Source of the DNA: Armatimonadetes bacterium DC
Lineage (GTDB): Bacteria; Armatimonadota; Fimbriimonadia; Fimbriimonadales; GBS-DC
DNA: 50,007 nucleotides
Direction of reading: 5' to 3'
NCBI GenBank assembly: GCA_001442985.1
Contig: LDYB01000017.1
Location: 1 to 50,007, forward strand
Below the pieces are notes generated by a model. It saw nothing but the letters and a program-made list of their open reading frames with translations, did no database searches and was not told the DNA's origin. Within the stretch, counting starts at the first letter, position 1, and each line of letters begins with the position of its first letter. A program made the translations under genes and the position numbers. Below, in pieces: positions 26,982 through 45,024 of the stretch.

Positions 26982-27174
26982 GGCTAAAGCGGCTCTGTCG
27001 CAAAGATGCCCGATAGAACACAGAATGCCCCCTCCGCCCGGTTCCCACCGCAAGCGAGGGGAACCGGGACCGTAGCTTCTGCACGCCTGAACGCGCCCCC
27101 TGCGTGGCATGGGAACCAACGGAGGAGGTCGCGAGATACATCGCCCAACCCTTACAACAGAGCAGCTAAAGCCA
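26982..27174. mobile_element. small inverted-repeat element (MITE-like), about 190 bases
   Basis: The left end GGCTAAAGCGGCTCTGTCGC (AAAG follows) is matched in inverted form by the right end CAACAGAGCAGCTAAAGCC. Inside is a GGTTCCC-family palindrome (27037-27068) and no open frame. The same end motif with an inverted partner also brackets 45727-46367. It resembles a non-autonomous element mobilised by a transposase elsewhere. Confidence 0.5.
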
Positions 27175-27294
27175 TTCCCGGTAGACAAAGCCCGCCTGTG
27201 CAGGCTCCCCGTAGCAAGGGCATCCTGCCCCTGTCCACACGCAGGATGCGCGTGCTACTTGAGTTGACGAAGTCAGCTTCGCTTGAGGAAACGA
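27175..27294. repeat. degenerate stem-loop repeat tract
   Basis: No gene. Pieces of the neighbouring three-way-junction repeat are visible: AAAGCCCGCCTGTGCAGGCT, TTGACGAAGTCAGCTTCGC, and GCAGGATGCGCGTGCTACTT which pairs loosely with GTAGCAAGGGCATCCTGC. It looks like a decayed copy. Confidence 0.45.
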
Positions 27295-27391
27295 GACGGC
27301 TAAAGCCGTTCCTACGAAACAAAGCCCGCCTTCGCGGGCTATTTCAGCCGACGCAGGTCGGCTTCGTCTATTAGGAACGGCTTCAGCCGTC
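27295..27391. repeat. three-way-junction repeat, copy 1
   Basis: An outer stem of about 20 bases (GACGGCTAAAGCCGTTCCTA with TAGGAACGGCTTCAGCCGTC) encloses two hairpins: AGCCCGCCTTCGCGGGCT and AGCCGACGCAGGTCGGCT. Copies stand at 27420 and, inverted, at 44794. No coding capacity. Confidence 0.8.
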
Positions 27392-27419
27392 TGGCTAATC
27401 CCACGCCCCTATAAACCCT

Positions 27420-27518
27420 GACGGGTGAACCCGTTCCCAGTAAACAAAGCCAGCCTTCGCTGGCTAAATCAGCCGACGCAGGTCGGCTTCGTTTTATAGG
27501 AACGGAACCTCAGCCGTC
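27420..27518. repeat. three-way-junction repeat, copy 2
   Basis: The same architecture as copy 1. The outer stem is weaker on the right (GACGGGTGAACCCGTTCC with GGAACGGAACCTCAGCCGTC). The first hairpin is AGCCAGCCTTCGCTGGCT, in which both arms have changed together relative to copy 1; the second hairpin AGCCGACGCAGGTCGGCT is identical. Confidence 0.8.
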
Positions 27519-27540
27519 AGAGCCTCACCCCCCCACAAAC

Positions 27541-27576
27541 AAAAAACGCCCCTCCCTCGCGCGAGGAAGGGGCGTC
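27541..27576 (-). terminator. intrinsic terminator of the CRISPR array transcript
   Basis: On the minus strand CGCCCCTTCCTCG pairs with CGAGGGAGGGGCG and is followed by TTTTTTG. It begins 5 bases beyond the last repeat and ends transcription coming leftwards through the array. Confidence 0.8.
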
Positions 27577-27580
27577 TTCC

Positions 27581-27804
27581 GTTTCAATCCCTCACAGGTA
27601 GGCTACAAACCCCGGGGAGATATCCCGTTGATTTCACGGGTGTTTCAATCCCTCACAGGTAGGCTACAAACTCAAGTGCGTCGCCCACTGCGACGCACAC
27701 ATCAAATGTTTCAATCCCTCACAGGTAGGCTACAAACTTATGACCCGACGCGCGGCGCGCCGACTGTGTTCTTTGTTTCAATCCCTCACAGGTAGGCTAC
27801 AAAC
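27581..27804 (-). CRISPR. CRISPR array, 4 repeats and 3 spacers
   Basis: Four identical 30-base repeats start at 27581, 27642, 27708 and 27775. On the plus strand they begin GTTTCAATCCCTCACAGG and end GGCTACAAAC. Spacers are 31, 36 and 37 bases. On the minus strand the repeat ends in ATTGAAAC, the usual crRNA 5' handle of type I/III systems. With the promoter at 27891-27920 and terminator at 27541-27576, this fixes transcription leftwards. No cas gene lies in the window. The absence of repeat decay suggests the array is still maintained. Confidence 0.95.
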
Positions 27805-44591: not shown

Positions 44592-44793
44592 GTGGGTTAA
44601 GTATACCTGTAGAGTTGGCTGGTCAGAGACTGAACACGGCTTCTGCAAGTCTCCCCCTCCGGGTCAGCGTTATACCAACTGGGCGGTCAGAGTTCGTGAA
44701 TTGCCCCCCTCCGCAAGATTCTCAATAGGGTGGTTTTTTTGAGGGGTACCGTTTTATGCGCTCCTGAAGCCTGTTGGGGAACGCCTCCGCCCT

Positions 44794-44890
44794 GACGGCT
44801 GAAGCCGTTCCTATAAAACGAAGCCGACCTTCGTCGGCTAAAATAGCCAGCGCAGGCTGGCTTTGTCTACTGGGAACGGCTTCAGCCGTC
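44794..44890. repeat. three-way-junction repeat, copy 3 (inverted)
   Basis: The outer stem GACGGCTGAAGCCGTTCCTA / GGGAACGGCTTCAGCCGTC encloses AGCCGACCTTCGTCGGCT and AGCCAGCGCAGGCTGGCT, i.e. the two hairpins of copies 1 and 2 in reverse order. The rest of the non-coding gap 44592-45024 holds a run of T at 44742-44748 and no gene. Confidence 0.8.
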
Positions 44891-45024
44891 GGGTTCTCAA
44901 AGCAGCATCGTCTGGGATTCCCGAAGTTTGAAGCGCAGATTGGTATTACGCCTGCAATCAAAGCGTTCGCGGCGAGGTTCAGCATATGGAGGGGGACATC
45001 CTGTGGCAGGAATCGCGAGCCTCC

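Follow-up and report, generated by a model that had tools for sequence, protein, structure and literature searches.

What kind of element is the repeat at positions 27295 to 27518 of a 50,007-nucleotide stretch from Armatimonadetes bacterium DC (contig LDYB01000017.1; the whole stretch is hereafter called the window), and by what means has it been copied? A sequence-only reading had described three copies, each with an outer 20-base stem around two inner hairpins, folded as a three-way junction, and had left the choice among a structured RNA, a processing site and a DNA structure recognised by a transposase of the IS200/IS605 or REP type. Comparison of the copies in the host genome (G000) and in other Armatimonadota identifies the repeat, with a probability that we place near 75%, as a mobile DNA element, carried mainly as cargo at the centre of MITEs in the host (order Fimbriimonadales) and its close relatives, which belong to a hot-spring group, and representing an Armatimonadota class similar to REP and BIME sequences.

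Copies in the window and in the host genome

All three copies were found where they had been described (Table 1), the last of them being best read on the minus strand. The interval originally delimited holds two of these copies and leaves the third outside, and the flanks of both adjacent copies are repeats as well. A cross-genome model searched in the window scored the three copies at E-values from 5e-18 to 3e-22, the copy at 27295 being itself part of the model alignment; their likeness is not due to chance. A decayed fourth copy lies upstream of the first, with its hairpin A at 27189-27206. The third copy sits within a D-type MITE bordered by TA beside CCAA/TTGG at both sides; this element was described from the window copy and the sequences of sister copies, since a scan of the host genome for D ends (8 mismatches) gave noise.

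Table 1. Features of the repeat and its surroundings in the window
Feature	Position	Strand	Basis
Full core copy 1, 97 bp	27295..27391	+	sequence, genome-wide alignment, cross-genome model
Outer hairpin h1 of copy 1, ACGGCT-AA-AGCCGT	27296..27309	+	sequence; covariation pairs
Hairpin A of copy 1, CCCGC/GCGGG variant, loop CTTC	27323..27340	+	sequence; covariation pairs
Hairpin B of copy 1, loop GCAG, C-G closing pair	27346..27363	+	sequence; covariation pairs
Outer hairpin h4 of copy 1, ACGGCT-TC-AGCCGT	27377..27390	+	sequence; covariation pairs
Full core copy 2, 99 bp; left hairpin GGGTGAACCC; right arm with two-base insertion	27420..27518	+	
Full core copy 3	44794..44890	-	101 bp identical at host loci L027, L028
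D-type MITE enclosing copy 3, imperfect ends ATACCAACTG... ...CAGATTGGTAT	44672..44946	.	sequence; sister copies
Decayed fourth core copy (about 27161-27280)	27165..27280	+	weak model match 27161-27232; sequence
Inverted pair GTAGC...GCTAC in the middle of the decayed core	27211..27258	.	sequence; L055 arranged alike
B-type MITE lying within the decayed core's outer hairpin; ends GGCTCTGTCGCAA / TTACAACAGAGCA	26991..27164	.	
8-bp target duplication GCTAAAGC, left	26983..26990	.	
8-bp target duplication GCTAAAGC, right	27165..27172	.	

The host genome (2.85 Mb, 26 contigs) gave at least 92 DNA-search matches with both strands counted, and the core of about 97 bp occurs at no fewer than 48 places, of which 40 hold a full-length copy; all these copy numbers are lower bounds. 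For counts on the fold within this genome, the 8 partial or interrupted copies were left out and the 40 full-length copies were reduced to 37 distinct rows. Among named records, an exact 43-base core pattern was present in two, AP024673.1 (a Fimbriimonadales MAG) and JAIMAN010000094.1 (an Armatimonadetes MAG).

Fold of the repeat

Each window copy contains the hairpins AGCCNGC-loop-GCNGGCT and AGCCGAC-loop-GTCGGCT, so that the two inner hairpins are kept in all three copies, as had been proposed. The exchange of CCCGC/GCGGG for CCAGC/GCTGG, taken initially as a sign that pairing rather than sequence is preserved, is a true two-sided change, although only one of the 37 distinct full-length rows has it; in one further row (L019) this stem is half changed and broken. 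The outer 20-base stem fared worse, as it is interrupted in the copy at 27420 by a two-base insertion and mismatches, and over the 37 rows its pairs 6, 11 and 8 fail in 14, 12 and 16 rows, respectively. The outer-stem fold taken as a whole did no better than 500 shuffles of these rows: its paired cells were matched by 76 of them and its changed pairs by 330. When the same rows were read as four successive hairpins (h1, A, B and h4), 98.5% of the cells were paired and 14 cells were two-sided, and on none of three measures (paired cells, two-sided cells, covariation score) did any of the 500 shuffles reach the observed value. On most measures the outer-stem fold does not rise above shuffles, the reason being that the two-sided change seen most often, GGCTAAAGCC to GGGTGAACCC in 12 rows, has both its sides within the left arm and disrupts the outer stem. 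Since the paired changes in this genome fall within each arm, the unit is a row of four hairpins.

A 33-row alignment from ten genomes (the host and nine others) showed the same fold with 47 two-sided cells, spread over 14 of the 26 pairs, which none of 500 shuffles equalled. Across these rows the outer stem has 89.8% of its cells paired and some two-sided changes; the outer arms covary partly because the two halves of the unit repeat each other in inverted orientation. The covariation analysis over genomic copies proposed with the sequence-only reading thus yields strong covariation, for four hairpins: the stems of further copies are compensated, but as four hairpins and not as a three-way junction, and the junction with a 20-bp outer stem is rejected inside the host genome. 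Covariation speaks of helices that are kept rather than of helices that form, and minimum free energy predictions give very stable folds in which a long outer stem is still possible in single strands.

MITE carriers and exchange of cargo

In the host genome, 63 of 80 core flanks resemble another flank. The A, C, D2 and F carriers are short non-coding elements bounded by paired terminal inverted repeats, as is usual for MITEs. Elements with A ends (GAGGGTGTTCGAAAAATC) are illustrated by L013, L034 and L041, which measure 158-176 bp and hold the core centrally; target duplications of A elements are 9-10 bp long, and a duplication of at least 9 bp with at most one mismatch was seen in 8 of 16 pairs and absent from the other 8. 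Between A ends there are remnants of a DDE transposase (PF01609, E 3.9e-6), the autonomous A element being broken in relatives. C ends (CTTAAAGGGGTAGGTTTTT) are accompanied by a duplication of 11-13 bp in three of nine pairs and by none in six. One C-end pair bounds an intact 1446-bp IS with a 383-aa DDE transposase and an 11-bp duplication; this protein matches PF01609 above the cut-off (E 2.9e-11) and the IS4 model NF033591 below it (94 bits against 152), and C ends have in this IS, whose ends are exactly theirs, an IS4-like autonomous partner. In the relative G013, where A ends too enclose the core, D2 ends carry TA on both sides in 9 of 10 elements and the core inside 6 of 10. F ends (G013 and G015) are flanked by TNA on both sides in 8 of 8 cases, identically in 5, with the core inside 7 of 8.

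Target duplications alone cannot tell a MITE that moved with its core from a core that entered a resident MITE; only the identical D copies and a subtype test bear on movement of the MITE together with the core. In that test, core subtype follows the MITE family (identity 0.911 within families against 0.892 between them, permutation p 0.010, n=16), which fits joint amplification after few captures. By the motif test, 6 of the 40 full-length host copies lack a recognised MITE end on either side, including both adjacent copies of the window. Copies with mixed ends also exist (A on the left with C on the right, and B with A), and the arms of B, C and D have short stretches in common beside the core.

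The same ends may hold other cargo. Among A-end elements from G012 and G016, plus one from G008, a pair of TGTC-type REPs replaces the core in 8 of the 15 pairs read (in elements of about 146 bp in G012 and G016), and duplications of 9-10 bp accompany 6 of the 15. Between D2 ends, other palindromes occupy 4 of 10 elements, a GTAG-like pair among them. These alternative palindromes within A and D2 ends indicate that carrier and cargo are exchangeable.

As a separate observation, two D2-end MITEs of G013 (L090 1153-1297 and L100 1238-1391) are filled at the centre by a long, nearly perfect palindrome of the CCCTCACCCCC...GGGGGTGAGGG type, which brings the unrelated palindromic fillings between D2 ends to three or more. 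Elements nested several layers deep were seen in the host at L045 2858-3285 and L050 1993-2393; in one nested example an A element surrounds the core, an E element lies in the outer hairpin of that core, and each insertion is symmetric to the palindrome.

Insertions into the hairpin tips

The core is also a target for other elements. Ends of the B/E kind (TGCTCTGTTGCAA) form 24 pairs, some overlapping, in the host loci read, with 64 end matches genome-wide. An 8-bp duplication accompanies 11 of the 24 pairs (ten exact, one with a mismatch) and is absent from 13. In nine of the 11 duplicated insertions, that of the window included, the duplicated 8-mer coincides with the tip of either h1 or h4; the remaining two lie in a similar hairpin (L026) and elsewhere (L151). 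We take B/E ends to resemble those of IS6, but a search for an IS6-family transposase (PF13610) as a partner for B ends found no match, and such an enzyme was rejected as their mover.

Distribution across Armatimonadota

With the cross-genome model, the core was found in 46 of 291 Armatimonadota genomes and 28 of 156 genera (the first model had placed it in at least 10 of 41 genomes). Its distribution is patchy, with several members of one genus lacking it. The surroundings of the core vary among these genomes: in the distant genomes G042, G213 and G050 the cores stand alone, with none of 28 flanks repeated, while flanks were repeated in 12 of 14 cases in G178 and 5 of 8 in G219. Target duplications at the very ends of stand-alone cores average 2.0 bp, against 1.8 bp in mismatched controls and 6-11 bp for A and C elements. 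Being at control level, these cores give no indication that the core is itself an element that duplicates its target, and this candidate was rejected.

Alternative explanations

A structured RNA or processing site, such as a terminator, an mRNA stabiliser or a small RNA conserved for its RNA fold, would account for the very stable folds and the strong covariation, yet paired changes of this kind can also be produced by palindrome repair in DNA. If one RNA strand were under selection, G-T mismatches should prevail, and the four stems contain 15 G-T against 14 A-C (small numbers from two alignments with three rows in common and an arbitrary choice of strand), which argues against RNA. None of the 48 host places lies inside a predicted gene, and neighbouring genes are in tandem at 22, convergent at 10, divergent at 8 and cut by a contig edge at 8; the 20 places in G013 divide into 8 tandem, 7 divergent, 2 convergent and 3 edge cases. 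With a simple gene finder of our own, the core thus showed no bias toward gene 3' ends in these two genomes (the control gaps for orientation are biased because they were drawn from the same loci), and a role as terminator or mRNA end was rejected. Rfam has no family at cut-off over the core, where only matches below it appeared, such as CRISPR-DR28 with 31.8 bits against 35, so a known RNA family was rejected as well. Of the 105 cores read, 96 have C(GNAG)G as the loop of hairpin B (39/40, 19/21, 10/12 and 28/32), a count biased by the presence of these loops in the models that found the cores, and GNAG differs from the GNRA form. The tetraloop form d(cGNABg) is a stable DNA loop and a T-YY-A tip a favourable one, the outer tip of the core being of that form; loop conservation, in cores found with loop-containing models, points to DNA. 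PMC5815330 describes d(GNA) loops closed by a C-G pair as stable in DNA. The RNA and processing-site options of the sequence-only reading thus found no support, and we regard an RNA role as very improbable.

The REP-type option came closest, in that the core is a dispersed, intergenic, inverted pair of hairpins on MITEs, but the proposed link to IS200/IS605 or RAYT did not hold. Mobilisation as a REP or REPIN by RAYT/TnpA-REP, in which a Y1 tyrosine transposase, at present or in the recent past, recognises the single-stranded hairpins, would agree with this inverted arrangement, intergenic at 48 of 48 places, with stand-alone copies that lack a target duplication, with tips conserved while stems vary and with the frequency of RAYT genes in the phylum (161 of 291 genomes, called by NF047646 at E <= 1e-10). 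The search for a linked RAYT or other transposase, covering the 291 genomes and 71 Y1/RAYT loci, found no link: RAYT genes are present in 27 of the 46 genomes with the core and 134 of the 245 without it (p 0.63), no core adjoins the 71 loci save for one weak match, and the core-rich genomes G000, G013 and G014 gave no RAYT match. The only Y1 transposase of the host reads QVH in place of HUH and lacks the tyrosine, at what we take to be the positions of these motifs, and it has orthologs in core-free relatives. A conserved GTAG beside the palindrome is likewise absent (of the 40 host copies, 15 have it on the left and 1 on the right; across genomes, 2/33 and 0/33), as is an unpaired CGTC tag: CGTC ends 35 of the 40 host copies, with three of the four letters taking part in h4 pairs, and cores in other genomes end in CGCT, CGCC or CGCA. 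RAYT/IS200 was accordingly rejected as the mover, and a RAYT-driven REP is an unlikely account of the core, even though the core agrees with REP and BIME sequences broadly defined as short palindromic units between genes, in high copy and in inverted pairs. Rather unlikely, too, is descent of the core as the inherited middle of one ancestral MITE whose ends diversified by recombination or end swapping, with no capture. The mixed-end copies and the stretches common to B, C and D arms are what such a history would leave, but it accords poorly with cores free of MITE flanks in three distant genomes, with the spread over 28 genera, with A, C, D2 and F being unlike in ends and duplication length, and with unrelated palindromes between A ends (G012/G016) and D2 ends.

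The Y1-like protein of the host deserves separate mention. The locus (L046, G000:C15:64063-64392) and its orthologs in the host's family (L110-L127) encode a protein in which HUH is lost (QVH or similar) together with the tyrosine, and the C-terminus of the host protein is similar to sigma-factor region 4. Judging from these sequence features, it is likely a domesticated transposase.

Proposed mechanism and relation to known systems

For the reading of the core as MITE cargo, the unit of about 97 bp would consist of two inverted half-units, each with an outer palindrome, a linker and an inner hairpin with a conserved tip. The terminal repeats of the MITEs would be recognised by DDE transposases supplied elsewhere, and the core would have spread mainly as central cargo: each MITE family would have taken it up on one or a few occasions, in the palindrome centre, after which the two were amplified together. 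The hairpins may have been kept through forming as single-stranded or cruciform DNA, and the original mover of the core may be lost or still to be identified. A wider form of this proposal, which we hold tentatively and at somewhat less than even odds, is that an old REP-like class without a transposase of its own changes vehicles, that other REP pairs (GTAG-like and TGTC-type) share the same seats and that exchange runs both ways. Tips with loops of an unusually stable DNA kind (C-GNAG-G inside, T-RA-A outside) would then let the core enter the palindromic centres of MITEs, and DDE transposases of different families would copy it along with the MITE.

Several parts of this picture have precedents. 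According to sections of PMC3733652, REP dimers lie inside longer palindromes in A. variabilis, T. roseum and H. neapolitanus, and REPs without a dedicated transposase are already in print; that 2013 survey left the spread of such REPs open and suggested that CGTC repeats may be mobilised by a broad spectrum of transposases. As REP dimers, BIMEs and REPINs are portrayed there, they share with the core a short, intergenic, inverted pair of hairpins, high copy number, patchy distribution and use as an IS target. The core is unlike them in that its half-unit has two hairpins and theirs one, and in that it rides MITEs with several different ends; unlike the GTAG and CGTC REPs of the same sections, it has neither a conserved GTAG nor an unpaired CGTC tag, and no RAYT link was found. 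The carriers (158-213 bp, non-coding, with terminal inverted repeats and duplications, and with a matching IS for C) are similar to the bacterial MITEs presented in parts of PMC10969869, but differ from them in that one core is common to unrelated families and one family holds alternative cores. Insertion of IS into REPs (Tobes and Pareja, 2006; PMC1525189) and of IS1111 into a GTAG REP of QMITE2 in Coxiella (PMC10969869) appears in portions of both papers, and there, as here, a hairpin repeat is a preferred target of mobile elements; in our case, unlike those, an 8-bp-duplicating MITE enters the outer hairpin tip of the core. The C-end IS agrees with the IS4 family in its DDE transposase and 11-bp target duplication, whereas C-end MITEs retain little besides the ends and the core.

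In a full-text literature search of papers outside subscription, none was found on the four-hairpin class or on a core shared by several unrelated MITEs. The occurrence of one core in MITEs with several different ends bears on how REPs without a dedicated transposase spread, and the host and its relatives preserve direct traces of REP-like pairs, one of the TGTC type, lodged in MITEs with 9-10-bp duplications. The idea of broad transposase use by REPs is now testable in a few strains. The four-hairpin core in MITE centres suggests a possible route for palindromic repeats that have no transposase of their own.

Cores and CRISPR sequences

Arrays of the CRISPR repeat GTTTGTAGCCTACCTGTGAGGGATTGAAAC have a trailer in common at their end, and this trailer contains a terminator-like hairpin. 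Such arrays lie in the window at 27519-27804, at L010, L011, L012, L019 and L230, and, in another genus, at L084. A core or part of one adjoins the trailer in all six of these arrays in the host and in the single one at L084. Two stretches of the repeat without a trailer have no adjoining core, and three further ones are cut by contig or fetch ends. Hairpin A itself, at 27318-27341 and 27443-27466 of the window, resembles CRISPR-DR28 just under the cut-off, and some CRISPR-DR28 entries may be palindromic repeats similar to the core rather than CRISPR repeats.
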